IMG/VR virus record: IMGVR_UViG_3300028025_006074
Span: 1-41,562 of that record
Strand: one strand, 5' to 3'
DNA from: a virus
DNA: 41,562 nt
Made by a program: the position numbers and the translations under genes
In this document: positions 4,066 to 26,412 of the stretch, in pieces
Layout of the letters: the number at the start of each line of letters is the position of its first letter
Numbering within the stretch: the stretch's first letter is position 1
Notes under the pieces: model-generated
What the model was told of the DNA's origin: nothing
Seen by the model: the letters and a program-made list of their open reading frames with translations, nothing else
The model's database searches: none

Positions 4066-5222
4066 TGTAGGTTAATTACGAACCCTTCTGGTGTTGTTCC
4101 TGGTTTATAAAATTTTAATCTGTTATTATATTGTTCACTCAAATCTGATAGTTGTTTAATAACGGGGTCGATTTCAATTACGTTAACATAATACCCTTCT
4201 TCCAATAAGTCCAAACATAATTTGAATTGTTGTGACTCTTCTAATATATCAGTTCCTCTTTTATATGTTACGTAATTCATAACAAAAGGTATCGTTTTGT
4301 CAGGATTTTGTTTGATGAAAAAATTCTTAATAAACTCAGCGTGTTCTTTATTAAACTCATCCACTGTAAGTGGAAGATTCAACTTCAATCCAAGTTCGTT
4401 GGCATAGTGACCCAAAGCTCTATTATCTCTTGGCAAACATGGCCCTCCAAATCCGAATCCATATTTCATGTATTTTTTTCCAACACGAGTATCACCACCT
4501 ATAGCATTCAAAACAACATCGATTTCGTTACCTAAATTTGATTTTGTTAAAATATCTCCCATCATGTTGGCATAACTAATTTTGGTAGTCAAAAAACAAT
4601 TTATACCAATCTTAGTAATTTCCGCAGCTTTAGGGGACATTATGTGGGCGTGTACCGGAGTAGTTTGTATTTTATTGTATATCTGAACTAATTCATTCGC
4701 CAATTCTTGATACTCAGTTCCAATCAAAACTATATCTGATTGTTCGAGACCTTTAACAATTTCTCCTTGAGCAATGAACTCAGGATTGTATGCGACTTGA
4801 ATACTAAACATTGAAAGTTTATTTTGAATTTGTTCAACATCACCGGGATTTGTAGTACAACCAACAATAAATTTTTTATTGAAAATGGAAATTTCCATCT
4901 TTGATGCCGTGAAAAAGTCATTTGCCACTTCGAAAACCGCAGAGGTGTCATAACTTCCGTCAGTTGTGGATGGAGTTGCCACAAAGGTAAATATAATATC
5001 TGTGTTTTCAATTATTTCGACGTTACTTGTTGTAGCACTGAAATTGTTAACTTCAAATAACATTTTTTGAATCAATGGTTCGTTTGTGTCACAAATCCCA
5101 TGATTCAAGTTATAGACATAATCTTCACGTTTATCAGATACTATAACTTCATATCCCGCTTTTTCACATAGTAGAGCAAATGTAAGACCTAATCTTCCAG
5201 CTCCTATGATACCTATTTTCAT
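4062..5222 (-). CDS. UDP-glucose/GDP-mannose 6-dehydrogenase family protein
   Basis: This enzyme family oxidises a nucleotide sugar at C6 twice, using two NAD+, to give a uronic acid nucleotide. The N-terminal NAD-binding motif GIIGAGRLG (residues 4-12) is present. TPSTTDGSYDTS (83-94), YNPEFIAQG (145-153), the EITKIGINCF block with its conserved Lys and Asn (201-210) and the catalytic Cys262 in FGGPCLPRD are all intact. At 386 aa it is slightly short for the family (about 390-450). The C-terminal UDP-binding domain looks divergent, so UDP-glucose versus UDP-GlcNAc, ManNAc or GDP-mannose cannot be decided. It uses two NAD+ per turnover, and the adjacent upstream gene is an NAD+ synthase. Confidence 0.87.
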   Translation of the reverse strand: MKIGIIGAGRLGLTFALLCEKAGYEVIVSDKREDYVYNLNHGICDTNEPLIQKMLFEVNNFSATTSNVEIIENTDIIFTFVATPSTTDGSYDTSAVFEVANDFFTASKMEISIFNKKFIVGCTTNPGDVEQIQNKLSMFSIQVAYNPEFIAQGEIVKGLEQSDIVLIGTEYQELANELVQIYNKIQTTPVHAHIMSPKAAEITKIGINCFLTTKISYANMMGDILTKSNLGNEIDVVLNAIGGDTRVGKKYMKYGFGFGGPCLPRDNRALGHYANELGLKLNLPLTVDEFNKEHAEFIKNFFIKQNPDKTIPFVMNYVTYKRGTDILEESQQFKLCLDLLEEGYYVNVIEIDPVIKQLSDLSEQYNNRLKFYKPGTTPEGFVINLQ

Positions 5223-6010
5223 ATAATTTCGTTTTCTTTCAAATCAAAAATTGGTATGGAAACCATTTTATGTTTATTTTTTCTGTTAAAGTTTAGAAAA
5301 GTTTCAATAATTTTGTATTCTTTCTCACTATAATTTTGTTTACTAATACCTTTCTCCATTGCCCATTCTAGTTCCTCATACGTTGCCCCAATTTGGTCTT
5401 CATCTACTCTATTATCTTCCCATAATCCATCAGTAGGTTCTGCGTTAATAATTTCCTCAATTACTCCCAAATGACGACCTAAATTTCTAACTTCTGTTTT
5501 ATATAAATCTGCGATTGGAGAAATATCAACACCACCATCACCGTATTTTGTGTAAAATCCGACTCCAAAATCTTCTACTTTATTTCCAGTTCCTACAACA
5601 ATACCATTTCTTGACGCTGCGATTTGATATAAAGTTATCATACGTAATCTTGACTTAGTATTTGCGAATCCCAATTCGGAGTTGAATTCTTTTTCAAACA
5701 GTACATTAGATTTGAATTCCTGAAAAGTTTTGGACAAATCGATAGTATAACCATTTACGTTACTATATTTTGATTTCAAAAAGTCAATTTGTTTGTTCGA
5801 CAATTCCGTGTTACACTCAGCTGAGTTTAATGGCATACCAATTACTAAAGTCGGTAGTCCTGTTTCAGCACACAAAGTTGAAACAACCGCCGAATCGATA
5901 CCACCTGAAACCCCTACAACTAAAGTAGTGATTTTGTTTTTTACTGTGTAAGATAAAATCCATTCTTTGATTTTATCTGACAGATTTTCATAATCAATAA
6001 TTCTATTCAT
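5219..6010 (-). CDS. nadE: Ammonia-dependent NAD+ synthase (NadE-like)
   Basis: A 263-aa N-type ATP pyrophosphatase. The ATP-binding P-loop SGGIDS is at residues 35-40. GTGNKVED (140-147), the long YTKYGDGGVDISPIADLY block (153-170) and PTDGLW (192-197) are the NAD synthase signatures. There is no N-terminal nitrilase domain, so it should use ammonia. The reaction is deamido-NAD+ plus ATP plus NH3 to NAD+. Length is normal for bacterial NadE (about 245-275). The neighbouring dehydrogenase consumes NAD+, and phages also carry NAD genes that can counter NAD-depleting defences; which role applies is not visible. The ATG overlaps the upstream gene's stop by one base. Confidence 0.88.
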   Translation of the reverse strand: MNRIIDYENLSDKIKEWILSYTVKNKITTLVVGVSGGIDSAVVSTLCAETGLPTLVIGMPLNSAECNTELSNKQIDFLKSKYSNVNGYTIDLSKTFQEFKSNVLFEKEFNSELGFANTKSRLRMITLYQIAASRNGIVVGTGNKVEDFGVGFYTKYGDGGVDISPIADLYKTEVRNLGRHLGVIEEIINAEPTDGLWEDNRVDEDQIGATYEELEWAMEKGISKQNYSEKEYKIIETFLNFNRKNKHKMVSIPIFDLKENEII

Positions 6011-7635
6011 TATAATATTTTTTTATACTCCTCTTTTATTTGTGATGTAACATTAGACGCATAATATTTTTCAATATCGGATGGAGGGTTGAATTTTTCT
6101 TTAGACAAAATGAATCCACCTGAATCTACTTTGTATATCCAACTTGGTTTTCCACACATCCATCCTTCGATTGTCGTACGCCCTAATTGAATACCTGCTG
6201 TCTCGGAACATTTTTGAACATAAGGTTCAACGTTCCATGTAGGAGGAAAATGTTTTACATGTGAATTTGTTAATATTGCTGGTAAGTAATTTGATTTGTC
6301 TTCTCCAACTATCCAAAGTTCTTTTCCTATTTCCGAAGTATAGTCAATTAAATCCATTATTGCCTCTTTTCTTAGATAATCTATGGTTCCAACAAATAGT
6401 ATATAGTTTTCTTCTTTAATTGATTTGGACTTGAATTTTTCATTATCTATAGGGTTATAGATAACTTCAATCAAGTTTTCATCTATTTCGAATTTATTTA
6501 TAATATAATCTTTTATCTCAGGTCTTATTGCGATATACTTTTTAATTGATTCGTGTTTGATTGGATCCTCTAATTCAATTACTTCAGAATGGATTGAATA
6601 TATTTTATCTATTTCAGGATAAAACTGTATCATTCTTTCTGCAACTGGTTTATGTTGCATGTGTATTACATCAAAGTTTACTTCTCCAACACGATACATG
6701 ACATTTGGTTGAGACGGTTGAAATCCATTTTCAGTAGTAAATCCCCACTTACCATCTCCTAATTTGAATCCTGGAGATTGTTCAAATGGTAAACATTTGA
6801 TTCCTTGTTTTTTAGCTAACTCAGTAAGTGGTCCTCCTATTTGGGACAATACTGTCACATCACAATTTTGTTTTATTAAATTTTTTGCCAATTCATAAAC
6901 ATATAATTCCGAACCTGTGAATGTTCTGAAAAAAAGACAACTAATTAATACTTTGATTTTTTTGTTTGAATCGAAGGGTAATTTAATAGGAAGATGAGAT
7001 TTGTATTTCTCAACGAATAATTTTCGGTTATCTTCCCATTGTTGATTAGTTTGACCAATCGATTTATGAGTCATTCTAATGTTTGTAATGACACCTACTT
7101 TAACTCCTTCCAAATGATTCTCTAAACAAAAAGGGATATCATAGAAATGGAACCCCTTAAAATCTTCATTAAATTGTTTTTTAATTCTCTTCTTATGAAC
7201 TGCGATAAATAATCCATCTACAACTACAGTTTCATGTACAGTATTACCTACTGCGTCGGCATACTTTGATTCCCACTTTTTTCCATCTTTTTCATGATTG
7301 ACAATTCCAACCATCTTTTTTCGATTTTCCCACCACATTCCAGTATCGGGCATAATTGTAGTACCCGCCATTCCGATAATACCAAAATCAGTTTTTTCAA
7401 AATGTTTAAGAAGTTTAGGATACCAAGCGGGGGTATCAAAATATATGTCATCATGGCAAAGTAAAACTATATCAGTTTTTGCCTCTGATAATATTTCATT
7501 GTAAACTTGAGATAATGATTTTCCACCGTTATTAACTTTTTCAATAACTTCAAGTTTTTTGAATCCTGAACTTTTTTTAAGATACTCAATAAACTCAGGT
7601 TTACTTTCTCTTGTTGAATAACCTACTGTAATCAT
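6010..7635 (-). CDS. Two-domain glycosyltransferase: StrF-like GT-A domain fused to GT4-like GT-B domain
   Basis: Residues 1-215 form a GT-A-like domain of the StrF (Glyco_tranf_2_5) type. It begins MITVGYSTRE, with LLCHDDIYFD (58-67) as the metal-binding acidic cluster, GIIGMAGTT (85-93), DGLFIAVHKK (140-149) and FHFYDIPFCL (162-171). Residues 226-541 form a second complete GT-B domain, starting VLISCLFFRTFTGSELYVYE and containing a GT4-like YILFVGTIDYLRKEA segment and GRTTIEGWMCGKPSW in the donor-binding half. A linker of about ten residues separates them. Fusion of an inverting-type and a retaining-type fold suggests two successive sugar additions, which is inference. It overlaps dut by four bases. 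Confidence 0.8.
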   Translation of the reverse strand: MITVGYSTRESKPEFIEYLKKSSGFKKLEVIEKVNNGGKSLSQVYNEILSEAKTDIVLLCHDDIYFDTPAWYPKLLKHFEKTDFGIIGMAGTTIMPDTGMWWENRKKMVGIVNHEKDGKKWESKYADAVGNTVHETVVVDGLFIAVHKKRIKKQFNEDFKGFHFYDIPFCLENHLEGVKVGVITNIRMTHKSIGQTNQQWEDNRKLFVEKYKSHLPIKLPFDSNKKIKVLISCLFFRTFTGSELYVYELAKNLIKQNCDVTVLSQIGGPLTELAKKQGIKCLPFEQSPGFKLGDGKWGFTTENGFQPSQPNVMYRVGEVNFDVIHMQHKPVAERMIQFYPEIDKIYSIHSEVIELEDPIKHESIKKYIAIRPEIKDYIINKFEIDENLIEVIYNPIDNEKFKSKSIKEENYILFVGTIDYLRKEAIMDLIDYTSEIGKELWIVGEDKSNYLPAILTNSHVKHFPPTWNVEPYVQKCSETAGIQLGRTTIEGWMCGKPSWIYKVDSGGFILSKEKFNPPSDIEKYYASNVTSQIKEEYKKIL

Positions 7636-12856: not shown

Positions 12857-15800
12857 ATGGCATATCAAAATATTAATCAGTATAATTTTAGACGTTGGGG
12901 GATTAGACCTGTCAATGAAATTACCGATATCTGTTTAGCATCAGACGAGAAGGACTATGACCAGGAGGTAATTTTTTCACCATTATTAATAGGTGAAGAT
13001 GATGGAAATAGAATGCCATTCAAATTCGATTTCAATAGTACGGGTACAACGATATGCCAATCAGGTTCCTGTACTTTTGATAATGATGTAATTGTTTCTG
13101 AAAATTATTGGAATCCTGAGGACATCGATCCTAACTTTTGTCCAAAAGTAACTGACTTATGTGATGTAGGTTTGACGGGTATTGATAATGGTTTGGTTAA
13201 AAAAATGTCAGGAGAGACAATACAAATCACAACAGGACTTTATACAAACAACACAGACAAATATAGTAGATACAAATACGATAGGAGAATGAAACTTCAT
13301 CCTATAACAGGATTTACTACAACACAAAATAGATTGTGGAATGATAACTCGTATAGTTACGATTTGAATTACGCAACTGATGGTGGTACAGTTGGATATT
13401 TTGCCCGATTGGATGGAGGATTTTTTCAAGGGTTTTACAAAATACCAGGATATGACTATCAAATTTTCCCACAAAGAGTTCCGTTAGGATGGACTGCCGA
13501 GTTCATGTTAAGATACCGATGGACAGGAGATACAAGTGTCGGACTTAACAATCGATATCCGAATAATAAAGGTACATTCTTTTATATGGGTTCTCGGGCT
13601 GAAAACAAATTTTATCATTATGCCGATGGTGAACCAAAACAAGATACGGGATATACAAGAGTAACCTCAGGATTAACTTGTATGCATACTTGTGGATGTG
13701 CTAGTTCCGCTAATACCTCATCTGATTGTCTTGAAGTGTATCAGATTTCAGGTGGGACATCAAAAAATTGTTCGTGTGGATGTAGTTGTGAATGCCAAGT
13801 CAACGCACAATATCCTGAAAAAGATCCATTATATGATGGTGTATCAAATGGATTATCGATAAGGTTGAGTGGAGACACAGGTAACCCAAGAGTTTGTATC
13901 AAGACATATAGAATTACTGGTGGTTGTGAAACAAGTGGTACTTGTTTGACAGGACTAACATATCAAACAGGAACCTCAGTAACTGAATGGTGTTCAACTA
14001 GAGGTATTTTCGATGAATGTAAAAATACACCATATATTAATGTGGAACATTGGGTTCAAATTGATGCCGTGTTCCAAAGAAATCAGTGGTTGGACACATG
14101 TGACCTTTATGAAAAGGGAGGATTAGGTCTTCTTGTGGATACAATTTATACCGCCACACCTGCCAATAATAGTGTCAGTTTGATTGAACCACCTCTTACT
14201 CATGAATTACCTTACGATCCGGCAACAACTGAAATTGTAACATTCAATGACAATTGGACTGAAGAAAAGAAATATAGATTAGGGACACTAAAGATATTCG
14301 TTAACGGTAAACTATTCATGGTCGCCGAAAACTTTGAAGAAATCATACCAAGACTATTAGATGTTCAAAAAGAAAAACAAATTGGTGTTGGATACAATAT
14401 TTCTTTGGGTGGAGGAACTCAGGGGCTAAAAGATAATCTAACATTCTCGGGAGGGTGTCCTGAGTCTATTAGTGGAATTACTTATCAGCAAGACCCTGAA
14501 TGTTTAACAACTCATGATTTAGATAACACAATATATTCAGGATTAACTACACATATTAAGTTAGAAGAATATTTTGGTGGTAGTATGATTGGAGATATTA
14601 GTGCGTTCAGGATGTATGTTGAACCACTAAACGCTTCTCAGGTAAAACACAATTTTAGAATACTAAAAAATAAATATACATTATTAAATCCTGAATGTCC
14701 TGATTGTGCTATAATCGTTCCAAGTAATGATTTAACTTATGAATTGATTCAAGCCACACCTACTCCTACTCCAACACAAACTCCTACACCTACAGTTACA
14801 ACTACACCGACTGAGACTCAAACACAAACACCTACTGAGACTCCGACACAAACGGTGACTCCAACTAATACTTCTTCACAAACTCCTACTCCATCAACAA
14901 CTGCGACTGTAGGACTAACACCAACTGCCACAGAAACTCAAACTCCAACACCTACTGAAACTCCAACTAATACACCGACCAACACAGAAACGGCAACAAG
15001 TACTCCGACAAATACTCCAAGTGAAACACCTACTAACACTCCAACATCTACAGAAACGCCAACTGTAACTCCAACTTCAACTGTTACGGCTGGTTTGACA
15101 CCAACTCCAACAGAAACACAAACTCCAACACAAACATCAACTCCAACACCGACATTGCCGGACGAAGGGTTCTTATTACAAGAAGATTATTTTATGATTC
15201 TTCAAGAGGATGGGTTTGGGATTTATATTGAGGTTGGAAATCCGACTTCAACTCCTACACCAACGCCTACTCCAACACCAACTAATACCGAAACTCCAAC
15301 ACCAACTAACACATCAACACAAACTCCGACAAATACGGCGACCGGAACTCCGACACAAACAAGTACACCAACTAACACATCAACTCCAACTAATACTAAC
15401 ACCCCAACAACAACGCCAACATCAACACAACCTGCGGGGTTATTAATTAATCTTGATTCAGGAAATTTAACATCTTATCCTGGTACAGGTAGTACATGGT
15501 TTGATTTAGCGGGAACAGCAAATAATGCTACATTATTTAATTCACCAACATATTCATCTTCTTATGACGGAATATTACAATTTGATGATGTGTCTTTAGA
15601 ATATGGTACAATACCTGATATTGGAACTTTATCTAATTGGACTGTTGAGGCATGGTTTAGATTAACAACTTCATTGACAGGTAAAGTTTCGTCAATAGTT
15701 TCAAACCAATTTAACAACTCAGTTTTGAATTTTAGTATTGGTACGAATAACATGCCAACTAATTCTAATCTAGCAGTAGGATTTTATAATCTCAGTAATG

Positions 15801-18214
15801 GTGGATGGAAAACAACTTCAGGATTTGTTCCTGTTGTGGGTAGTTGGTACCAAGTTGTTGGTACATATGATGGTACGACAGTGAGACAATATGTTAATGG
15901 GGTGGCATCTGGTGGAACATTAACTACATCAGTGGCTTCACAATCAGGTGGTGAAATAAGACTGATGAGAAGATGGGATGAAACTTTAATCTCAAATAAT
16001 CTTGTTGATGGTGATTTGGCAATTGTAAAAATTTATAATACAGCATTATCATCATCGGACATTCTTCAAAGTTACAATGACACTTACACAAGATTTTTGG
16101 AACCGACACCAACACCAACAACAACAAGTACTCCAACTGTAACCCCTACTAACACGAATACACCGACCCCAACAAATACCGTAACACCAACTGTAACCCC
16201 AACAAATACTCCAACACCTACATCAGCGGCAACTAGTATCTTCACAGTATCAGTTTCTCAAGTAGGACCTGATGTTGTATGGAGTGGTTCAGGTAGTTTT
16301 AATTTAACGGCTCTATCTTTAGTTGGTAGTGGAAGTAATGGGTCAGCGTTTGCTGCACTTTCTGGCATTTGGGCAATCGGTCCAACCACGACAGTTCAGA
16401 GATATGGGGGTGCATCGTTAACAGGTTACTCAACCACTTTTGGAAGCAACCTTGTTGTTCCAACCCCAACATCTTCAGGTTCAACATTTGGTATTTTTCC
16501 TGGTGGTGTAAGTGGACGTTTAGTAATGGTCCCTTCAGGATATACATCAAATACAGTTATTAGTGGAACTGCAACCTATCCAGGAGCAACAATTGCAAGT
16601 ATGGGGCTAACACCTGGAACATACACATGGGCGTGGGGCTCAGGTGCAAATTCAAGTTCAATCGTAATGACAATTGAAGGGTCATCAGTATCACCTACTC
16701 CAACCGCAACAAATACCGCAACACCAACTGTAACTCCGACTAATACATCAACTCCGACTAATACTCCAACAGTAACTCCAACACCTAATATAGTAACTTC
16801 GGGGCTTATTATGCAATTAGATGCTAATAAAACCGATAGTTACCCTGGTTCAGGTACGACAATTTTTGATTTAACAGGATCATTCAATAATACTTTATCG
16901 GGTGGGGCAACTTTCACAACTCTAAACGGTATTAAATGTTTTGATTGTAGTACTGGTACTGAGTCAATTCAGGTTAGTAGTACAGGACCATCTCTACCAA
17001 CTACAGGGTATACATATGTAACTTGGGCAAGAATTATTCCAAGTTCAATTGGGTGGAGGTCTTTATTAAGAACAAACAATAATTTGCCAATTTTAGTAGA
17101 ACAAGGAACCGATAATTTAGGTTACTATAATACAGTATTCCGAGATTCAGGGTATGACGTTACATCGGTTGAAGAAGTGTGGGTACAATATGCTGTAGTC
17201 GGAGACAATACGTCAAGTATTTTCTATATTAATGGAACTCAAGTTGGAACGGTTGCTTTTGGTGCGGGTGGGGACACTCACGTAATGTGGGGTAATAACC
17301 TTCTTGCGGGGCAACCATTTGGATATTTAGCAAATTTATATTTCTACAATAGAAAATTAAGTTTCTCTGAGATAAATCAAATGTATAATTTTTTATCTCC
17401 AAATTTTGTGGAACCGACCTCAACACCAACAACAACAAGTACTCCAACGGTTACACCAACTAGGACAGCAACACCAACTGTAACTCCAACTAATACTAAT
17501 ACTCCAACACCATCCGCAACACCAAATATTGTATCTACCAACTTACAACTTTATTTACAACCAAGTAGTTACGTTGGGTCTGGTACTGTTTGGGATACTT
17601 CAGTTGGAACAACTGACGCAACACTATCAGGTAGTCCAACCTATAACGTATCAAGTGGATTCACATTCAACGGAACATCATCTTTCGGTAGAATACCGAG
17701 TGTTAATGGGGTGACAAACTTTACAAATTCTCAACAATATACTGTCGAGGTATGGTTCAACCCTGCTAACGGTCAACCAAACTCAGGTGAAGCTGAATTA
17801 TTAGAAAAATGGAACTTAAATAACGAAGCAAGATACCCTTATACTATTAGATTTAACGAAGGTGCGAGTAGTATGTTAGTTGCCGCTTTTGACGGAACTA
17901 ACTTCCCTCAAGTCAGTGTAACAGGTTTCCCTGTGAATACTTGGAGACAAATAGTTGCGGTATTCGATTTTGTTGGTAAAACTCTAACAGTTTATAGAAA
18001 TGGTGTATCTGGCGGAACTACAAGTTTAATTGGTGTTGGACAAGTAAGTAATACAAGTCCTGTTGGTATTGCAGGTAGAGTTGCGGCAGGTACTGGAGGA
18101 TTACAAGTTCCATTCAAAGGAACTGTTGGAATAATAAGAATGTATGATACATCATTAACCTCATCACAAGTATTACAAAACTTCAATGCAGATAAATCCA
18201 AATACGGACTATAA
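12857..18214 (+). CDS. Giant multi-domain adhesin/fibre protein with LamG-like domains and Pro-Thr linkers
   Basis: This 1785-aa protein is built of globular domains joined by mucin-like Pro-Thr linkers. Residues 1-633 are the N-terminal region, with a Cys-rich patch (about 273-390) and a LamG-like fold ([40 protein letters not shown]). Linkers lie at 634-768, 796-859, 1083-1122, 1279-1310 and 1520-1556. LamG/concanavalin-like domains lie at about 860-1082, 1311-1519 and 1557-1785, each ending in a strand pair like [19 protein letters not shown]. Residues 1123-1278 are a different beta domain with [14 protein letters not shown], like the region before PEP-CTERM tags. It is probably a virion-surface carbohydrate-binding fibre. 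No signal peptide is seen, as expected for a virion protein made in the cytoplasm. Confidence 0.75.
14756..15160 (+). repeat. Pro-Thr linker repeat 1 (giant fibre gene)
   Basis: About 135 residues made almost only of Thr and Pro with Asn, Gln, Glu and Ser, in units such as [19 protein letters not shown]. At DNA level it is a degenerate run of ACNCCN and ACTAAT-like hexamers, so most units vary in the third codon position. Confidence 0.9.
15242..15433 (+). repeat. Pro-Thr linker repeat 2 (giant fibre gene)
   Basis: About 64 residues of TPTPTNT-type repeat, separated from linker 1 by a 27-residue insert ([20 protein letters not shown]). It leads into the first internal LamG-like domain. Confidence 0.88.
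16103..16222 (+). repeat. Pro-Thr linker repeat 3 (giant fibre gene)
   Basis: About 40 residues of Pro-Thr repeat between the first internal LamG-like domain and the PEP-CTERM-associated-like beta domain. Confidence 0.88.
16693..16786 (+). repeat. Pro-Thr linker repeat 4 (giant fibre gene)
   Basis: About 31 residues of Pro-Thr repeat ([20 protein letters not shown]) joining the PEP-CTERM-associated-like domain to the next LamG-like domain. Confidence 0.88.
17414..17523 (+). repeat. Pro-Thr linker repeat 5 (giant fibre gene)
   Basis: About 37 residues of Pro-Thr repeat before the C-terminal LamG-like domain. Its start ([16 protein letters not shown]) closely resembles linker 3, suggesting internal duplication of linker-plus-domain units. 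Confidence 0.88.
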
Positions 18215-18240: not shown

Positions 18241-19107
18241 ATGCCAAATTTACCGATATCCCAATTACCATTAGCAACATCAGGACAACCAGAGTCTTGG
18301 ATGGCGATTGTTAATTATGATGTAGACCCATCAGGAATAACCAATAAAATATATTTTTCAGCCTTAACCGAGCAATTTTCAGGAGCAACAGGTACTAGCG
18401 GAACATCTGGTACGGATGGTACATCTGGAACTTCAGGTGTTTCAGGAACAAGTGGAACCTCTGGAGTGAGTGGTACCTCAGGAACTTCAGGAATCTCTGG
18501 TACAAGTGGAACTTCTGGTATAAACGGGACATCAGGAACATCAGGTATTTCTGGAACAAGTGGAATAAGTGGTGTTGACGGAACTGACGGAACAAGTGGA
18601 ACTTCTGGTATAAATGGAACAAGTGGTTCAAGCGGAACTTCTGGTATAAATGGAACTTCAGGTACATCTGGTTCTTCAGGTACGAGCGGTAGTTCAGGTT
18701 CTTCAGGAACAAATGGAACTTCGGGAATTTCAGGTTTATCTGGTTTTACAGGTAGTTGGACGGTGACACCAGGAACTAATAACTACAGTTTTACAGTTGC
18801 TGACAGAAACACATATAACTTATGGGTTCAGGGAAATATACCAAATGGTATAATAGTTTATAATGCTACAGTAAGTGTAAGTAATCTTAATGTACCCGTA
18901 ATCGGTGTTCAGTATGCATGGAATTATACTGGTGGGGGTAGTCCAATATTGTTTACAAGCATACCTGTACAGATTATAGGAACCGCAGGTGCAATATCCA
19001 CCGCTTCACCAGCTGTAGGTACAACAACTAATACATTTGTATTCGGTATTCAAAACAATACAGGTTCAAACGTTACGGTTGATTATGGATATTTGAAAAT
19101 ATCTTAA
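18241..19107 (+). CDS. Collagen-like GTS-repeat fibre protein
   Basis: The 288-aa protein has three parts. Residues 1-50 are a short N-terminal domain (MPNLPISQLPLATSGQPESW) of the kind that docks phage fibres. Residues 51-172 are about 40 Gly-X-Y triplets, mainly GTS, with GIS, GVS, GIN, GTD and GSS variants. Residues 175-288 are a beta-rich C-terminal knob (SWTVTPGTNNYSFTVADRNT, VQIIGTAGAIS). Gly-X-Y shafts form triple helices in bacterial and phage collagen-like proteins, but these triplets contain no proline. It probably makes a thin trimeric fibre ending in a beta-sandwich receptor-binding or capping head. It lies between the giant LamG protein and the short Pro-Thr cassettes. Confidence 0.75.
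   Translation: MPNLPISQLPLATSGQPESWMAIVNYDVDPSGITNKIYFSALTEQFSGATGTSGTSGTDGTSGTSGVSGTSGTSGVSGTSGTSGISGTSGTSGINGTSGTSGISGTSGISGVDGTDGTSGTSGINGTSGSSGTSGINGTSGTSGSSGTSGSSGSSGTNGTSGISGLSGFTGSWTVTPGTNNYSFTVADRNTYNLWVQGNIPNGIIVYNATVSVSNLNVPVIGVQYAWNYTGGGSPILFTSIPVQIIGTAGAISTASPAVGTTTNTFVFGIQNNTGSNVTVDYGYLKIS
18391..18756 (+). repeat. Gly-X-Y (GTSGTSG) repeat tract
   Basis: A tract of 9-base triplet codings (GGN ACN TCN and variants) repeated about 40 times. Runs such as GGAACATCAGG recur with synonymous changes. The tract encodes the shaft of the collagen-like protein and would be prone to length change. Confidence 0.9.
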
Positions 19108-19138: not shown

Positions 19139-19705
19139 ATGAGTGCTTGTAATCAATATCGAATAACAAATTATAACAGCGTTGAAGACGGTTATTATAG
19201 ATTTACAGGATGTACTGGTATTATCAGTGTTTCAAGTATATCTCCATTAGACACTCAATATGTTTGTGCTCAAGAATTAGTAAAAGAAAGTTATAGTGGT
19301 CCATTGGATATTGTAAACATGGGATTGTGTCCAAGTACAACTCCAACTCCCACAGTAACTCCAACAGTAACTCCAACAGTAAGTTTATCGGCCACACCAA
19401 CGACCCAAACTCCAACTCCTACAAATACCGCAACCCCATCAAATACACCATCACCAATTTATGAAAGAAACTTAAGAGGCGGAGGTTGGTATCAAGATGT
19501 TTGTCAATCTGTTAATATGATTGCCAATCCTGCAAATGTTAAAATATTCACAACAAAGCCATTCGACACTTTGGAAGTTGGAGACCATGTTTATGGAAAT
19601 AGAGAATTGACAATACCTCCAGTCGGTGGTAAATTCACAATTTCAGATGGAGCGAAATTTGTACAACTAAGTGGTACTTTAATAATTAATACAGGAATAT
19701 GTTAA
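19139..19705 (+). CDS. Short Pro-Thr-linked fibre cassette with C-terminal beta domain
   Basis: Not recognised as a named family. Residues 1-64 are a small N-terminal domain with several cysteines (SACNQYRITNYNSVEDGYYR, VCAQELVKESYSG). Residues 65-107 are a Pro-Thr linker, and residues 108-188 are a second domain starting YERNLRGGGWYQDVCQSVNM and ending VQLSGTLIINTGIC. The head-linker-head architecture matches the other cassettes in this block, pointing to a virion-surface appendage. The ATG at 19139 follows immediately after the orphan LamG 3' end, in an A-rich leader with no Shine-Dalgarno sequence. Confidence 0.6.
   Translation: MSACNQYRITNYNSVEDGYYRFTGCTGIISVSSISPLDTQYVCAQELVKESYSGPLDIVNMGLCPSTTPTPTVTPTVTPTVSLSATPTTQTPTPTNTATPSNTPSPIYERNLRGGGWYQDVCQSVNMIANPANVKIFTTKPFDTLEVGDHVYGNRELTIPPVGGKFTISDGAKFVQLSGTLIINTGIC
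19331..19457 (+). repeat. Pro-Thr linker repeat in the 188-aa cassette
   Basis: About 42 residues, beginning with three near-identical copies of CCAACAGTAACT ([11 protein letters not shown]), linking two small domains. Confidence 0.85.
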
Positions 19706-19734: not shown

Positions 19735-20031
19735 ATGGCAATAGGTGTAAGAATATTGAGTCAAAATTTGAGTGGTCAAACAACAAATGTAACATTTCAT
19801 CCTGAATCAGGAGGAACTATTGATTTGGGTACTCAAGTATTTCCTTTCGAATATATTTCAGATTATTATTGGGGGACTTATAATTGTTATGTACCGACAT
19901 ATGCAACCAATTACCCCATAACTATTCCAGGGCCAACACCAACTCCGACAGTATCTCCAACAAATACTGCAACACCAACCCTTACTCCGACTGAGACTCC
20001 AACAAACACTCCAACGGTTACTCCTACCTAA
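19735..20031 (+). CDS. Short fibre cassette ending in a Pro-Thr tail
   Basis: Not recognised. The 98-aa product has a small N-terminal domain (residues 1-66, MAIGVRILSQNLSGQTTNVT through WGTYNCYVPTYATNY). It is followed by about 32 residues of Pro-Thr repeat, where the gene simply stops. Other cassettes continue into a C-terminal domain, so this one looks truncated after its linker. The stop codon lies in TACCTAAATATGG, inside a degenerate copy of the LamG 3'-end sequence, which suggests a recombination junction. The leader contains TATTTAA only three bases before the start. Confidence 0.55.
   Translation: MAIGVRILSQNLSGQTTNVTFHPESGGTIDLGTQVFPFEYISDYYWGTYNCYVPTYATNYPITIPGPTPTPTVSPTNTATPTLTPTETPTNTPTVTPT
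19933..20028 (+). repeat. Pro-Thr repeat at the 3' end of the 98-aa cassette
   Basis: About 32 residues (PTPTPTVSPTNTATPTLTPT and more) running straight to the stop codon, with no domain after it. Confidence 0.85.
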
Positions 20032-20113: not shown

Positions 20114-20326
20114 ATGGCATGTAGTAAATATACTTTAACAAATACTGGATCGACAATAGTTAATTTCAGTTATCAACGATGCGACGACAATTTATGGGAT
20201 TATCAAGTTGAACTATCCCCGAATCAAACGAAAAATATTTGGGTATTAACCGGAACTTATACGGTGGCACCATCTTTCAAACAAAATATAAGTTTAACTG
20301 ACGATGGAGTATTTCCTCCATTATAA
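20114..20326 (+). CDS. Stand-alone copy of the cassette head domain
   Basis: A 70-aa protein ([20 protein letters not shown]..., ending DDGVFPPL) that is nearly identical to the first 70 residues of the 475-aa protein just downstream, with about 15 substitutions. It stops exactly where the longer paralogue begins its Pro-Thr linker. The fold is probably a small beta-sandwich with two cysteines (Cys3 and Cys23), but I do not recognise a named family. It may be a separate small virion component or the remnant of a cassette that lost its linker. It has its own TATTTAT element. Confidence 0.6.
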   Translation: MACSKYTLTNTGSTIVNFSYQRCDDNLWDYQVELSPNQTKNIWVLTGTYTVAPSFKQNISLTDDGVFPPL

Positions 20327-20356: not shown

Positions 20357-21784
20357 ATGGCTTGTAGCAAATATACTTTAACGAACACGGGTTCAACAAT
20401 AGTTAACTTTAGTTATAGAAGATGTGATGATTCAATGTGGGATTATCAAGTTGAATTACTTCCAAACCAAACTAAAAACATTTGGGTTATTGGTGGAACC
20501 TATACTGTGGCACCCGCTTTCAAGTCATCAATATCTTTTATAGATGAGGGTCCATTTCCACCGATTTCGGCAACTAATACTCCGACTCCATCGCCAAGTT
20601 TAACCCCATCTCCAACTGTAACACCAACTAATACTGCCACTAACACTCCTACGCCAAGTGTAACTGCGACTAATACTGGAACTCCAACTCCAACACCAAG
20701 TGTGACGGCAACAGGAACTAATACTCCAACACCAACGCAAACTGTTACTCCAACTACAAGTGTGACGGCAACAAGCACAAATACTCCAACACCAACGGAA
20801 ACTGTTACTCCAACTACAAGTGTGACCGCAACAAGTACAAATACTCCAACACCAACGCATACTGCGACACCAAGTGTAACTCCAACGAACACTCCAACAA
20901 ACACATCAACTCCAACACCAAGTGTGACTGAGGGATTAACTCCAACACCAACTGAAACTAATACTCCAACACCAAGTGAAACTCCTACGAATACTCCTAC
21001 GAATACCGTGACTCCAACTAATACTGAAACTCCAACTAATACACCAACTCAAACAAACACATCAACTCCGACTAACACACCAACCCCAACTAATACTGAA
21101 ACTCCAACGAACACTCCAACAAATACTCAAACTCCTACAAATACTCAAACTCCTACAAATACTCAAACTCCTACAAACACTCCAACTCCAACTAATACAG
21201 AGACTCCAACAAATACTCCAACACCAACCAATACTCAAACTCCAACCAATACTCAAACTCCAACTAATACAGAAACTCCAACAAATACTCCAACACCAAC
21301 CAATACTCAAACTCCAACCAATACTCAAACTCCAACCAATACTGAAACACCAACTCAAACACCAACTCCAACACCAACGGAAACTAGAGTATATAACACA
21401 GTATTCGTAAACAATGCCATTGGAGGCGCACAAATAACAGGTTTTTCTGATATATCAGGACCTATCCCATTAACAAATGCTACGGGAAGCTTCCCTCTCA
21501 CTGGCGGTCAGGCCTTTTCAGCAGACCACGGAACTACTAACAACAATCCATCAGTAGCTGTCTCAGGTACAGGAAATATTGGTTTTACAGTTGTTCTAAA
21601 TGGATTTCTATTAAGTTCAAATCCATCAATCGGAATACCTTTAACAATTGGAGTAACTTCTGGAGCAGCCCCACTTTCATCAACAGATACTTTAGTAGTA
21701 ACAATAACAGATGCTGTAACTCCAACACCAACTCCAACAAATACAGAAACTCCGACAGCAACCCCTACTCCAACAGCTACTTAA
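20357..21784 (+). CDS. Fibre cassette with a very long Pro-Thr linker
   Basis: The 475-aa protein begins with the same head domain as its 70-aa neighbour ([20 protein letters not shown]). It then has about 272 residues of Pro-Thr repeat (residues 73-344). A beta-rich C-terminal domain (345-454, [20 protein letters not shown] ... [18 protein letters not shown]) follows, and the protein ends in another short Pro-Thr tail. The linker contains regular 60-base and 72-base DNA repeats. The C-terminal domain resembles small Ig- or BACON-like beta folds but is not assigned. It is probably a long, extended and heavily Thr-rich virion appendage. A strong terminator follows, and the GT60-type glycosyltransferase gene starts 79 bases further on. 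Confidence 0.62.
20572..21386 (+). repeat. Long Pro-Thr linker array with higher-order repeats
   Basis: About 272 residues of T-P-rich repeat. Three successive 60-base units start at 20701, 20761 and 20821. An 18-base unit (ACTCCTACAAATACTCAA) is repeated around 21121-21180. Two 72-base units, 21188-21259 and 21260-21331, differ at one base. The array therefore has recent duplications, unlike the more diverged linkers in the giant gene. Confidence 0.9.
21720..21782 (+). repeat. C-terminal Pro-Thr tail of the 475-aa cassette
   Basis: About 21 residues of Pro-Thr repeat ending at the stop codon. As in the 98-aa cassette, no domain follows. Confidence 0.8.
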
Positions 21785-21810
21785 AATTAAAAAAAAATTA
21801 TATATTCAAA

Positions 21811-21838
21811 AACCCTCCACTTTACGGAGGGTTTTTTT
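21811..21838 (+). terminator. Rho-independent terminator after the fibre block
   Basis: AACCCTCC, loop ACTTTAC, then GGAGGGTT followed by a run of T residues. The 7-8 bp stem and U-tract are classic and end the fibre transcription unit before the glycosyltransferase genes. Confidence 0.9.
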
Positions 21839-21863
21839 ATTTTATAGTAAAAATATAAATCAC

Positions 21864-23126
21864 ATGAAAATTTTTATTCAGATAGCATCTTACAGAGACC
21901 CACAGTTGGTTCCAACCCTTAAAGATATGATTGCGAACGCAAAAAAACCAAGCAACTTGGTATTTGGTATCGCAAGACAATATAGTGAATCAGACGGATT
22001 CGATAATTTAGATGAATTTAGAAAAGATAAAAGATTCAAAATCTTAGACATTCCATATCAAGAATCCAAAGGTGTTTGTTGGGCAAGAAATTTGACACAA
22101 CAACTTTATGGTGGAGAGGAATATACCATGCAAATCGACTCTCACATGAGATTCATTAAGGATTGGGATGATGTATTAATCAAGATGATTAAAGGATTAC
22201 AAAAAGATGGATATAAGAAACCTTTGTTAACAGGCTATGTTCCTTCATTTGACCCTGAAAACGATCCAGCAGGCCGAGCTCAAGACGCATGGAGAATGGC
22301 ATTCGATAGATTTATTCCTGAAGGAGCGGTATTCTTTTTACCTGAAACAATTCCAGGTTGGAGAGAAATGACAAAACCAGTTACCTCAAGATTCTATTCC
22401 GCACACTTCTGTTTTACACTCGGACAATTCTCAACTGAAGTACAACACAATCCTGAATACTATTTCCACGGGGAAGAAATTTCAATTGCTGCAAGAGCAT
22501 ATACATGGGGTTACGACTTGTTCCACCCTCATATTCCTGTTGTATACCATGAGTATACCCGTAAAGGTAGAACCAAGCAGTGGGATGACGATAAGACGTG
22601 GGGAGACAAAAACAAACATTCTCACTTAACAAATAGAAAACTATTTGGTATGGATGGTGAAACTCAAGAAGGACATGACGGTCCTTATGGGTTTGGTACA
22701 GTTAGAACACTCAGAGAATATGAAAAATATTCAGGTTTATTATTTGAAAAAAGAGCAGTTGACCAACATTGTTTAGACAAAAAATATCCGCCAAGTCCTC
22801 TGATTGAAGATGAGGAAGAATGGAAAAATAGTTTCTCAACTATCTATAAGCATTGTATTGATGTTGGATATTCAAGTGTTCCTGAAAAAGATTATGATTT
22901 TTGGGTTGTTGCCTTTCACGGACCAAATGATGAAACTATTTACCGAAAAGATGCCGACAAAAATGAAATTGCTGGATTTATGAGAGACCCTGATAAATAT
23001 TGTAAAGTATGGAGAGAATTTCCTACAACAGTGTTACCATCATACTGGGTCGTTTGGCCTCACTCAGAATCTAAAGGTTGGTGTGATAGATTAACAGGAC
23101 AATTAAATCACAATCACGTTAGTTAA
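21864..23126 (+). CDS. GT60-type polypeptide GlcNAc-transferase homologue (PF11397-like)
   Basis: The 420-aa protein carries the ordered motifs of the GlcNAc family that includes Skp1 hydroxyproline and trypanosome mucin-threonine GlcNAc-transferases: IQIASYRDP (residues 5-13), GVCWARNLTQ (70-79), MQIDSHMRFIKDWD (89-102, DxH metal site) and YFHGEEISIAARAYTWGYDL (200-219). It then has VVYHEYTRKGR (226-236). Residues 330-420 are an extra C-terminal segment not known to me. The family adds GlcNAc to protein hydroxyls, so the Thr-rich linkers encoded just upstream are candidate acceptors; this is inference. Bacterial homologues can sit in surface-glycan loci, so a glycan acceptor is also possible. 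It leads a four-gene run with overlapping ends. Confidence 0.82.
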   Translation: MKIFIQIASYRDPQLVPTLKDMIANAKKPSNLVFGIARQYSESDGFDNLDEFRKDKRFKILDIPYQESKGVCWARNLTQQLYGGEEYTMQIDSHMRFIKDWDDVLIKMIKGLQKDGYKKPLLTGYVPSFDPENDPAGRAQDAWRMAFDRFIPEGAVFFLPETIPGWREMTKPVTSRFYSAHFCFTLGQFSTEVQHNPEYYFHGEEISIAARAYTWGYDLFHPHIPVVYHEYTRKGRTKQWDDDKTWGDKNKHSHLTNRKLFGMDGETQEGHDGPYGFGTVRTLREYEKYSGLLFEKRAVDQHCLDKKYPPSPLIEDEEEWKNSFSTIYKHCIDVGYSSVPEKDYDFWVVAFHGPNDETIYRKDADKNEIAGFMRDPDKYCKVWREFPTTVLPSYWVVWPHSESKGWCDRLTGQLNHNHVS

Positions 23127-23872
23127 TGAAGTTTTCTGAAATACCAAAGTTTGTCATCAATTTGGATAGAAGACCCGACAGGATGGAATCCATTACAAAA
23201 GAAATGGAATATATTGGTTGGGATTTCGAGAGGTTTTCTGCAGTAGATACAAACTCATACATGGGTATTACCAAATCCACATTCGAAATTATTAAAATTG
23301 CTCAAGAAAGAAAATATCCAAGAGTGATGTTAATTGAAGATGACTGTGGGTTTATGCCATATGCGAAGGATTTATTGGAACAAATCGAAGGAACTTGTTC
23401 TGATTTGGAGTTCGCAATGTTTAATTTAGGTCCAACACAAAATAGACCCATAAATGTTAGTGGCAAATATGAGTTATTGTTTGACATGACGAATACTCCT
23501 GAAGCTCCGCCAGAATGTAGAGGGATTTACGGTGCTAACATGGTGATTTATGATGAGTCAATTTATGACAAAATTTTTGATATTTCGCAAACCGCGTTTA
23601 CTACAAGTGGAGAATATTACTTTGCTTTAGATGATTACACCTATCAGTTCATAGTTCAAAAACATCAAAGTTATTCACCAATATTACCAATTGCTCCACA
23701 GAAATCGAATTATTCTAATATATCGGAAGGTATGTACAACAATTGGTATATGCAAACATATAATTGGAACAGGTGGGCACCAAGAAAAATACCTAATGAA
23801 TTTATGGACCAGTATAAAGTCCAAGAAATGAAAGATAAAAACGAACATCATAAATTTTATTATGTCAGTTAA
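23126..23872 (+). CDS. GT25 family glycosyltransferase (LPS/LOS galactosyltransferase-like)
   Basis: A 248-aa protein starting KFVINLDRRPDRMESITKEM (residues 8-27), the GT25 hallmark. VMLIEDDCGF (67-76) gives the acidic metal-binding cluster, and YGANMVIYDESIYDKIF lies further on. GT25 enzymes add galactose or glucose to lipooligosaccharide, and collagen-type GT25 enzymes act on hydroxylysine of proteins. The sequence is closest in style to bacterial LOS enzymes. The start ATG overlaps the GT60 gene's stop by one base (TAATG). Length is normal for the family. Confidence 0.8.
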   Translation: MKFSEIPKFVINLDRRPDRMESITKEMEYIGWDFERFSAVDTNSYMGITKSTFEIIKIAQERKYPRVMLIEDDCGFMPYAKDLLEQIEGTCSDLEFAMFNLGPTQNRPINVSGKYELLFDMTNTPEAPPECRGIYGANMVIYDESIYDKIFDISQTAFTTSGEYYFALDDYTYQFIVQKHQSYSPILPIAPQKSNYSNISEGMYNNWYMQTYNWNRWAPRKIPNEFMDQYKVQEMKDKNEHHKFYYVS

Positions 23873-24743
23873 ATTTATAACTTCAATATATAGTGACTTA
23901 TATGGAACTGAGTTTGGTGGAAGAACAAACAGGGGAGGTCATTATAGATATAGTTTGTTATCATTACTTAAGATGACAGACGCAGATTTTTTGTGTTACA
24001 CTTCAGATAGAGAATTAGATTCACTAATTAAATTCTTTTATGAAGAAAATCAAATTTCCCCCGAAAAATTAAAATTTCAGACATTTGATATTTCACAAAC
24101 AAAATTCAGAGATTTAATTAATCAATATAAAAATATTGACGAAACCAAAAAGTCTGATAGATGTGTAGAAATTCAATATTCAAAATTTCATTGGTGGTGG
24201 AACGAAGATAAATCATACGACTATTATTATTGGATTGATGCTGGTTTATCTCACTGCGGTTTGATTCCATTAAAATATTTGACTCACGATGGTTTAGTTA
24301 GAAGATATTATGAAAGTTCCTTATTCAATAATGAATTTTTGAAAAATGTTATCGAAGAAACCAAAGATAAGTTTTTGATTATCGGAAAAGAAAACGATAG
24401 AAATTTTTGGTCAGGTACTGTAGACAGAAAATGGTATAAAGAATTCGATAGAGGATTACATATAATCGGAGGACTTTTTGGTGGTCACAAAAGTAAGTGG
24501 GACGAAATGGTTACTTTGTTTGAAAACTATATTCAAAACATTATATCTGAAGATAAGGGTATTCCACATGAAGAGAATGTCATGACCCTTATGTATTATA
24601 ATCATAAAGAACTTTTCGAAAGAAAACATTTTGACATTTGGTGGTGTAGAGATAACGCACCAAGAGGAACGTCGGAAGAATTATTCCAACAAAATAAAAG
24701 TTTTTATAAAATATTAGAAGAATTTAATAAAATATATGAGTAA
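23862..24743 (+). CDS. HtrL/YibB-family (WlaTC-like) putative glycosyltransferase
   Basis: The 293-aa protein has the layout of HtrL_YibB proteins: an N-terminal FITSIYSDLYGTEFGGRTN, then YYYWIDAGLSHCGLIP (residues 121-136), a GGLFGGHKSKWDEM segment and a C-terminal HEENVMTLMYYNHKELF. The family occurs in LPS core and capsule loci and is generally treated as a GT-A-like glycosyltransferase, but its reaction is poorly defined. It overlaps the GT25 gene by 11 bases and the next HtrL-type gene by 8 bases. The two neighbours share family motifs, so they are old paralogues. Confidence 0.7.
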   Translation: MSVKFITSIYSDLYGTEFGGRTNRGGHYRYSLLSLLKMTDADFLCYTSDRELDSLIKFFYEENQISPEKLKFQTFDISQTKFRDLINQYKNIDETKKSDRCVEIQYSKFHWWWNEDKSYDYYYWIDAGLSHCGLIPLKYLTHDGLVRRYYESSLFNNEFLKNVIEETKDKFLIIGKENDRNFWSGTVDRKWYKEFDRGLHIIGGLFGGHKSKWDEMVTLFENYIQNIISEDKGIPHEENVMTLMYYNHKELFERKHFDIWWCRDNAPRGTSEELFQQNKSFYKILEEFNKIYE

Positions 24744-26412
24744 TATAACTTTAGTCACAGGTATTTGGGACATTGGGAGAGGTGAATTAACTGAAGGTTG
24801 GAGCAGGTCATACCAACATTATTTAGATAAGTTTGAACAACTATTAAAGGTTGAAGAGAATTTAATTGTTTTCGGAGACGAAGAATTAAAATCATTTGTT
24901 TTTGAAAGAAGAAATTCTGAAAATACTCAATTTATTACCCGACCACTTAGTTGGTTTACTAACTCTGAATTTTTTCCGTTGATTCAAAAAATTAGAACAA
25001 ATCCTGAATGGTATAATTTATCAGGATGGTTAAAGGAATCTACACAAGGTCGATTGGAAAACTACAATCCTTTGGTCATGTCAAAAATGTTTTTGTTACA
25101 TGATGCCAAAATAATGGACCAGTTTAATTCTGAATATATGTTTTGGATTGATGGTGGATTAACTAATACCGTACATCCAGGATACTTCACTCATGATAAA
25201 GTTTTGAATAACTTGTCCAAATACATTTCAAAGTTTTCATTCATTTGTTTTCCTTATGATGCTGAAAGAGAAATTCATGGATTCGAATATAATAAGTTAA
25301 ATTCTATTGCTGGTTCCAAAGTTAATAAAGTTGCCCGAGGTGGTTTCTTTGGTGGCCCTAAACACACAATTGGTGATGTAAATGGAATCTATTATGGATT
25401 GTTAAAAAGTACTTTAGAAGAAGGATACATGGGAACTGAAGAGTCAATCTTTAGTATTATGTGCTATAAACATTCTGACTTATTTAATTACTTTGAAATC
25501 GAATCTAACGGATTGGTTGGTAAATTTTTTGAAGACCTTAAAAACGACACCTTAAAAGTTAAAAATGAAAGTTCCGTACAAGTAACCAATAATTTGGATA
25601 CAAATAAAGTAGGTTTATATGTAATCACATTTAATAGTCCAAAACAATTCAAGACGTTAATTGATTCTATGTTGGCGTATGATAAAGATTATATTAACAA
25701 AACAAGTAAATTTTTGTTAGATAATTCAAGCGACTTGTCAACTACTGAAGAATACTCAAAGATTTGCCAAGAATATGGATTTGAACATATTAAAAAAGAT
25801 AACTTAGGAATATGTGGAGGAAGACAATGGGTTGCGGAACATTTTCAAAATGAAACTGATTTAGATTATTATTTGTTTTTCGAAGATGATATGTTTTTCT
25901 TTCCAAATGAAGGAAAGGTTTGTAGAAATGGGTTCAATAGATATGTCCCTAACTTATACAGTAAATCTTTAGAAATTATTAAAAAAGAAAATTTAGATTT
26001 CTTAAAGTTAAATTACACTGAATTTTATGGTGATAATGGTGTGCAGTGGAGTTGGTATAATGTTCCGCAACATATTAGGACAGAATTTTGGCCAGGTAAA
26101 CCCAGGCTACCCGAAATTGGCCTAGACCCTAATGCCCCTAAGACAGAATTCCATGCGGTTTTATCTCATAAGGGATTACCATATGCCAAAGGAGAAATTT
26201 ATTACTGTAACTGGCCTCAGATTGTCAGTAGAATTGGAAACCAAAAGATGTTTTTAGATACTAAATTTCAATCGCCATTCGAGCAGACTTGGATGTCATT
26301 TATGTATCAAGAAACTAAAAAGGGAGTAATTAACCCTGGAATTTTATTGTTAACTCCAACCGAACACGATCGTTTTGAACATTACGAACGAGGTCTTAGA
26401 AAAGAATGTTAA
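24736..26412 (+). CDS. HtrL/YibB-family domain fused to a GT2-like domain
   Basis: Residues 1-270 are a clear HtrL_YibB domain: TLVTGIWDIGRGELTEGWSR (5-24), MFWIDGGLTNTVHPGYF (135-151), VARGGFFGGPKHTIGD (199-214) and GTEESIFSIMCYKHSDL (233-249). After a short linker, residues 291-558 are a second GT-A domain: VGLYVITFNSPKQFKTLIDS (292-311), DNLGICGGRQWVAEHF and YLFFEDDMFFFP (379-390). The fusion suggests two linked transfer steps. The 3' end overlaps the convergent HNH gene by four bases, so this is the last gene of the glycosyltransferase run. No terminator was found there. Confidence 0.75.
   Translation: MSNITLVTGIWDIGRGELTEGWSRSYQHYLDKFEQLLKVEENLIVFGDEELKSFVFERRNSENTQFITRPLSWFTNSEFFPLIQKIRTNPEWYNLSGWLKESTQGRLENYNPLVMSKMFLLHDAKIMDQFNSEYMFWIDGGLTNTVHPGYFTHDKVLNNLSKYISKFSFICFPYDAEREIHGFEYNKLNSIAGSKVNKVARGGFFGGPKHTIGDVNGIYYGLLKSTLEEGYMGTEESIFSIMCYKHSDLFNYFEIESNGLVGKFFEDLKNDTLKVKNESSVQVTNNLDTNKVGLYVITFNSPKQFKTLIDSMLAYDKDYINKTSKFLLDNSSDLSTTEEYSKICQEYGFEHIKKDNLGICGGRQWVAEHFQNETDLDYYLFFEDDMFFFPNEGKVCRNGFNRYVPNLYSKSLEIIKKENLDFLKLNYTEFYGDNGVQWSWYNVPQHIRTEFWPGKPRLPEIGLDPNAPKTEFHAVLSHKGLPYAKGEIYYCNWPQIVSRIGNQKMFLDTKFQSPFEQTWMSFMYQETKKGVINPGILLLTPTEHDRFEHYERGLRKEC

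Follow-up and report, generated by a model that had tools for sequence, protein, structure and literature searches.

Does a large aquatic phage whose genome encodes long threonine-rich repeats beside a putative mucin-type transferase glycosylate its own surface proteins? The question is raised by a 41.6-kb linear virus fragment (IMG/VR record IMGVR_UViG_3300028025_006074, positions 1 to 41,562; 34% G+C), here called the window, with genes for a tail sheath and a family B DNA polymerase. Within it, genes for proteins with (Thr-X)n arrays are followed by a gene for a GT60-type glycosyltransferase, and an earlier note on this DNA had proposed that the phage O-glycosylates such linkers with that enzyme. 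We give a probability of about two in three to the reading that the locus is a phage O-glycosylation kit, in which the GT60-type enzyme would start glycans on virion Thr arrays and a dual-domain enzyme would extend them. The phage probably puts sugars on its own surface proteins, because its relatives keep together the arrays and an enzyme resembling the initiators of mucin-type glycosylation. Co-occurrence, predicted fold and the virion glycoproteins reported for the isolate XacN1 speak for the proposal of the earlier note; the arrays as acceptor, N-acetylglucosamine (GlcNAc) as the sugar and virion fibres as the site are its presumed parts.

Arrays were found in four forward open reading frames (ORFs) between 12857 and 21784 (Table 1), amounting to 887 array residues with 338 Thr and 163 Pro. 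Thr recurs at every second residue (lag-2 85%, lag-1 4%; Thr parity 315:23), all four ACN codons are in use for it, and the X position holds P, S, N, Q or E, mostly Pro. The 475-aa protein directly upstream of the GT60-type gene contains 160 Thr and 75 Pro; its long array (20558-21430) has 291 residues, 128 of them Thr (parity 125:3), and its second array (21650-21781) has 44. The repeats had been described as Pro-Thr linkers, which is right as to their richness in Thr and Pro, but they are strict (Thr-X)n repeats, a better name than one suggesting loose linkers or random mixtures. The same alternation was seen in relatives, where 173 array ORFs with 34,387 array residues gave a Thr parity of 12269:1041 (lag-2 0.83, lag-1 0.05); there Pro fills about one third of the X positions and the remainder depends on the lineage (S, N, Q and E in the window; V, S and A in XacN1). 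Codon differences at Thr in seven alignable array pairs were 62 silent versus 12 replacement, which together with the use of four Thr codons indicates that the protein sequence, beyond a DNA repeat, is under conservation. Codons for Pro and the other X residues are likewise conserved, so this count does not single out Thr.

All four proteins have dense Pro/Thr/Ser domains of the acceptor type found in mucin-type O-glycosylation systems. N-glycosylation of the arrays was considered and rejected, as direct reading of the dominant T-N-T-P/E/Q units found no x-Ser/Thr after Asn. Two further ORFs lie among the array genes: a 70-aa ORF (20114-20326, +) is a near-copy of the head of the 475-aa protein that stops where the array would start, a tandem duplicate without array, and a collagen-like protein (18241-19107, +; PF01391, tail-fibre phrogs) has Gly-Thr-Ser-type triplets, rich in Thr with a period of three.

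The product of the GT60-type gene matched PF11397 with E = 5e-67 and 227 bits (cut-off 21), which places it in CAZy family GT60; the match fell in two stretches, the better aligning residues 54-295 with profile positions 95-351. It also matched phrog_24687, 'glycosyltransferase' (E = 3e-163). The pairing of Thr-rich linkers with a GT60 homologue had been pointed out before, and the array residues, the 291-residue array and this score make it stronger than claimed. The terminator and 79-base spacing of the earlier note were also confirmed: 79 nucleotides (nt) separate the stop of the array ORF from the start of the GT60-type gene, and within them lie a hairpin and T-run, features also present in 44 of 50 distinct intergenic stretches of relatives.

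Searches of PDB sequences with the enzyme or its profile gave no match, and a fold search was used instead. The AlphaFold model had a predicted local distance difference test score (pLDDT) of 91.4, and its top 29 structure matches (VIA-align 2) were all polypeptide N-acetylgalactosamine (GalNAc) transferases, with Z 19.2-22.2 and root-mean-square deviations of 3.3-4.0 Å over 252-279 residues; the next solved entry had Z 17.8. A C-terminal beta-rich extra region (residues ~325-415) was hardly covered by these matches. D92, S93, H94, G203, E205, H229 and E230 are invariant in an alignment of 34 GT60 sequences, and we take D92-S93-H94 to be the counterpart of the Asp-x-His metal motif of GT27, presumably with the same metal-site role. 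The predicted model combines this motif with a GT-A fold akin to the polypeptide GalNAc-transferases, which adds independent support to the proposed reading. A mucin-type system would need an initiating polypeptide N-acetylhexosamine transferase beside its acceptors, and an enzyme that is a candidate by family and predicted fold co-occurs here with the arrays. GT60 members transfer GlcNAc to protein hydroxyls (PMC6939170, PMC8724618), and the family is described as the protist counterpart of the animal polypeptide GalNAc-transferases, without their ricin-like domain (PMC8724618).

Several phage glycosyltransferases act on DNA, and the enzyme and its partners might glycosylate hypermodified phage bases, as the T4 glucosyltransferases do. 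A DNA-modifying role is the first discussed, with a virion-modifying one also named, for the core glycosyltransferases of the moraphages, an aquatic jumbo lineage whose core comprises PolB, sheath, dUTPase, UvsW and four glycosyltransferase groups (PMC12619734). The window has PolB and sheath genes, and by eye some of its ORFs resemble dUTPase and UvsW; its phage may be a member. We nevertheless regard DNA bases as a highly improbable target, since the GT60-type gene adjoins array genes of virion type, the window showed no recognisable base-modifying partner, the best structure matches are polypeptide transferases, and a bacterial chromosome carries the cassette too, with no phage genes around it.

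Eighty GT60 loci of close relatives (85-98% identity; the longest are 317-326 kb contigs) were compared. An array ORF lay 5' of the GT60 gene in 75, mostly within 100 nt, and in the other five the gene started less than 740 nt from a contig end; this is the co-occurrence that the earlier note had asked to be checked. Among loci picked by polymerase, GT60 was present in 46 of the 46 that reach far enough upstream or already show it. Arrays in phage records were sought with a DNA pattern for TPTxTPT, the reversed form serving as control (blastn with the array gene gave no match in phage records, probably because repeats are filtered). The pattern was carried by all 25 GT60-bearing records tested whole (12/12 in one set and 13/13 in another); a fourteenth record of the second set is without GT60 and breaks off near the expected gene position. 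No relative that kept GT60 without Thr-Pro repeats, which would have counted against glycosylation of the arrays, was found among whole-tested records of the window lineage and the XacN1 group. The isolates XacN1 and RAS14, both among these 25, have GT60 enzymes 46.6% and 44% identical to that of the window, and their genomes gave 51 and 22 pattern matches, with none for the reversed pattern in either. Arrays occur in at least eight ORFs of XacN1 (174, 180, 190, 350, 369, 370, 372 and 384), and three array ORFs lie near its tail sheath gene.

Ten T4-like or jumbo records (Atu_ph07, SCTP-2, 121Q, GAP32, PA5oct, CBB, Mel-JY01, LR756508, S-BM1 and Hallingskeid) had no GT60, and TPTxTPT was absent from nine and matched once in the tenth. 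When contigs were chosen by array pattern, PF11397 was found in 14 of 27 of 80 kb or more and 6 of 50 of 15-80 kb (20/77 in total, or 19 without the antisense case G025 discussed below), versus 1 of 45 reversed-pattern controls, that one also array-bearing. Of 99 phage loci with GT60, 78 held a clear array, versus 3 of 78 control loci. In one contig (L317, G023; ORF 1-2340, -) the GT60 domain stands at the start of an 820-aa open frame, apparently fused to a second glycosyltransferase-like domain.

Co-occurrence within a lineage could also arise by descent: the arrays might be plain flexible linkers and the GT60 enzyme might modify host lipopolysaccharide or capsule, excluding other phages or altering the receptor, with no functional link between the two. 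Most records do belong to one lineage with a conserved order from GT60 to polymerase, and genes of a kind common with surface polysaccharides (GT10, GT11, GT2, a nucleotide-sugar dehydrogenase) are also present in the window. Against this, the GT60 enzymes of phages occupy no fewer than three branches: one is the window's group, a second is the XacN1 group, close to enzymes of Burkholderiales, and a third is L100/L147, close to Verrucomicrobia. Arrays are present in all three groups; on the GT60 tree, built by a quick method and with many weak branches, the phage label needs four changes, at least three of them forced by well-supported branches. At locus L147 the polymerase is of the window type (60%) but the GT60 belongs to a different branch, as though the function had undergone replacement, not loss. 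XacN1 keeps both arrays and GT60 (ORF334, homologue of the window enzyme) although they are not adjacent, and the model of the enzyme is nearer to polypeptide transferases than to polysaccharide synthases.

The pair also recurs on bacterial chromosomes. In Jiulongibacter sediminis (L488 7945-15142) a (Thr-X)n protein lies between two GT60 genes, followed by carbamoyltransferase and FkbM-HtrL genes; UDP-glucose-dehydrogenase-like and epimerase-like genes stand upstream of this cassette. Array proteins adjoin GT60 in metagenome-assembled genomes (MAGs) of Bacteroidia, Vicinamibacterales and Prosthecobacter as well. Three of these four array proteins, and an array protein 2 kb from GT60 in a Mycobacteriaceae MAG, have twin-arginine-like N-termini, as would fit proteins that are glycosylated in the cytosol and exported afterwards. 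Because high-GC frame artefacts can mimic Thr-Pro, an alternation score was applied to the bacterial array loci, which reduced them from 13 to 8. Most bacterial GT60 genes have no arrays, and fimbrial and type VI secretion genes precede GT60 in a Neisseriaceae genome and some Burkholderiales, both of which fit an enzyme with no tie to arrays. With the points on both sides taken together, we consider a purely inherited association unlikely.

Among these type VI neighbourhoods (Table 1), GT60 is preceded by a TssA gene and a fimbrial gene in Trinickia terrae and the Neisseriaceae genome. Trinickia terrae (checked with Pfam) and Paraburkholderia ferrariae have, 4-5.5 kb downstream, VgrG-type spike proteins whose tails are (Thr-Pro)n repeats.

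The enzyme might also modify other virion proteins or residues, such as the collagen-like fibre or the lectin domains, with the arrays as bystanders. The Gly-Thr-Ser repeats are Thr rich too, GT60 adjoins fimbrial proteins in Burkholderiales, and the glycoproteins of XacN1 are not named in the part of its report available to us. We rate this reading as quite unlikely, since the direct neighbour of GT60 is a (Thr-X)n protein at nearly every phage locus, as it is in the bacterial genomes named above.

Several observations weigh against glycosylation of the arrays. The records are not independent, most being of one lineage, and the size-matched comparison of 15-80 kb contigs alone was not significant (6/50 vs 1/45, p about 0.11), although a single gene of a 320-kb genome would often be missed by a 50-kb piece. 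Among array-picked contigs of at least 80 kb, about half had no GT60. One of 202 kb (G017, the contig of L143) has an array of 431 residues, and its polymerase shares 56% identity with that of the window, yet it gave no PF11397 match; the contig may be incomplete or the absence real. Contig G025 was dropped as array support, its pattern match being antisense and the neighbouring protein Val-Gly rich. A clear array was present in only 9 of 80 bacterial GT60 loci, which indicates that the family also does other work. XacN1 was reported without tail fibres by electron microscopy, and the available part of its text names neither the glycoproteins nor Thr arrays (PMC5852040). The acceptor and the sugar, like the order of steps, the location on the virion and the benefit, are what we infer.

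If the arrays are glycosylated as we propose, virion proteins bearing them would be made in the cytosol during infection. The soluble GT60-type enzyme would then transfer one sugar, probably alpha-linked GlcNAc or another N-acetylhexosamine from its uridine diphosphate (UDP) form, onto many Thr hydroxyls, presented on every second residue of an extended chain. Both synthesis and assembly of phage proteins take place in the cytosol, where they would be within direct reach of a soluble enzyme that uses nucleotide sugars. The first sugar would be extended by the dual-domain HtrL_YibB enzyme, plus the GT25-like enzyme in the window lineage, so that tail or fibre proteins would bear glycosylated linkers or bristles that are stiff and resist proteases.

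The dual-domain HtrL_YibB enzyme is the most conserved partner of GT60: its gene comes after GT60 in every one of 79 close relatives, in 15 of 17 XacN1-like loci and, among bacterial loci, in 13 of 64, and its product is 41.5% identical to XacN1 ORF330 over its length. Its model (pLDDT 90; predicted template modelling score 0.64) gave Foldseek matches to LH3, LARGE1 and K4CP, the full-length match being weak. The GT25-like gene was found in 71 of 79 close relatives and not in XacN1-like phages, and is largely confined to the window's group. Between these two genes, a 293-aa protein had no Pfam match and was 22% identical over 133 residues to the dual-domain protein. NCBIfam also scored it at 22.9 bits for the AcrID1 anti-CRISPR family, below the cut-off of 30; this is probably due to chance because the protein resembles HtrL enzymes. 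The distant cluster of GT10, GT11 and GT2 genes (Pfam) and the nucleotide-sugar dehydrogenase lie at 1725-7635; the dehydrogenase (4062-5222, -; TIGR03026, 208 bits) could supply UDP-glucuronate-type donors. Of the further glycosyltransferases listed in the earlier note, GT10 and GT11 were recovered, with GT2, one clear HtrL_YibB and a weak, partial GT25; the second HtrL had no Pfam match.

Table 1. Coordinates of the array proteins, the GT60-type gene, its neighbours and the bacterial type VI neighbourhoods. Positions are those of the window unless a locus is named.
Feature	Position	Strand	Basis
1785-aa protein with three Laminin_G_3 (concanavalin-like lectin) domains and five linking (Thr-X)n arrays; candidate fibre/acceptor	12857..18214	+	PF13385 E = 5.5e-38, 3 stretches
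Five arrays of the 1785-aa protein	14705-15187, 15206-15469, 16049-16273, 16652-16834, 17372-17560	+	Thr parity 62:3, 31:1, 24:1, 15:3, 18:1
188-aa protein with (Thr-X)n array at 19304-19471; candidate acceptor	19139..19705	+	Weak phrog_15511 match
98-aa protein with C-terminal (Thr-X)n array at 19885-20028; candidate acceptor	19735..20031	+	ORF reading, array parity count
475-aa protein, ~70-aa head, then 291-residue and second array; candidate main acceptor	20357..21784	+	Parity; array ORF 5' of GT60 in relatives
Intrinsic-terminator-like hairpin and T-run between array gene and GT60 gene	21808..21836	+	Sequence of 79-nt gap
GT60-type glycosyltransferase, 420 aa, GT-A fold nearest polypeptide GalNAc-transferases; proposed initiating enzyme	21864..23126	+	PF11397, phrog_24687, model
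GT25-like protein, possible extension enzyme	23126..23872	+	PF01755 E = 1.3e-6, weak, partial, 29 bits
293-aa protein, remote similarity to HtrL domain of next gene	23862..24743	+	XacN1 homologue ORF332, 29%
558-aa protein, HtrL_YibB domain and second domain, predicted dual glycosyltransferase-like; proposed extension enzyme	24736..26412	+	PF09612 E = 1.9e-21
GT60/type VI neighbourhoods	L515 7722-18964, L512 15078-17564, L497 7524-11350	n/a	Trinickia terrae, Neisseriaceae, Paraburkholderia ferrariae loci

Beyond the window, we tentatively suggest, at somewhat less than even odds, that jumbo phages and bacteria share a mobile, cytosolic, nucleotide-sugar-dependent mucin-type cassette of GT60 and an HtrL-type dual glycosyltransferase, often with carbamoyltransferase or FkbM methyltransferase. 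Phages would use it to build bristles of glycosylated (Thr-X)n repeats on their virions; in bacteria, array proteins with Tat-like N-termini would be glycosylated in the cytosol and then exported. If glycosylation of the arrays is confirmed, many uncultured jumbo phages would make their own mucin-like surfaces, which would influence how they adsorb to mucus or biofilm, resist proteases and are recognised by the immune system. Repeat proteins now listed as unknown, a large class, would gain a function, and a compact cytosolic enzyme would be available for making mucin-like polymers. With XacN1 and RAS14 in culture as isolates, the question is open to direct test.

Few cases of glycosylated phage virions are known, and none in the literature searched appears to describe a start on (Thr-X)n arrays by an enzyme of GT60 type. 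The closest comparison is XacN1, for which proteomic analysis gave at least two glycoproteins, and the glycosyltransferases ORF328 and ORF334 were suggested as their makers (PMC5852040). XacN1 shares with the window the homologous GT60, the HtrL enzyme and the presence of array ORFs; it differs in having a carbamoyltransferase in place of GT25, and its authors, in the part of their report available, drew no link to Thr arrays or GT60 chemistry. Mycobacteriophage capsid and tail-tube glycoproteins, as cited in PMC12619734, are likewise glycosylated phage virion proteins, but their sites are at C-termini and no (Thr-X)n arrays are named there. CelA of C. bescii has alternating Thr-Pro linkers like those of the window; deletion of the GT39 gene left secreted enzymes without glycosylation and CelA more cleaved, so that its glycosylation guards against cleavage (PMC6151902). 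That enzyme, unlike the one proposed here, is a membrane GT39 that probably uses a lipid-linked donor outside the cytosol. The GT27 polypeptide GalNAc-transferases are the nearest solved fold (Z up to 22.2) and have an Asp-x-His metal motif that the Asp-Ser-His invariant in the 34 aligned homologues resembles, whereas identity to the window enzyme is only ~10-16%, no Pfam GT27 profile matched it, and use of UDP-GalNAc is not implied. Whereas the window gene is of phage origin, has a predicted activity and an extra C-terminal beta-rich region, and has no solved relative by sequence, it shares the PF11397 family, at 227 bits, with the protist GT60 alpha-GlcNAc transferases, among them Gnt1 of Dictyostelium and Toxoplasma and the mucin enzyme of Trypanosoma cruzi.

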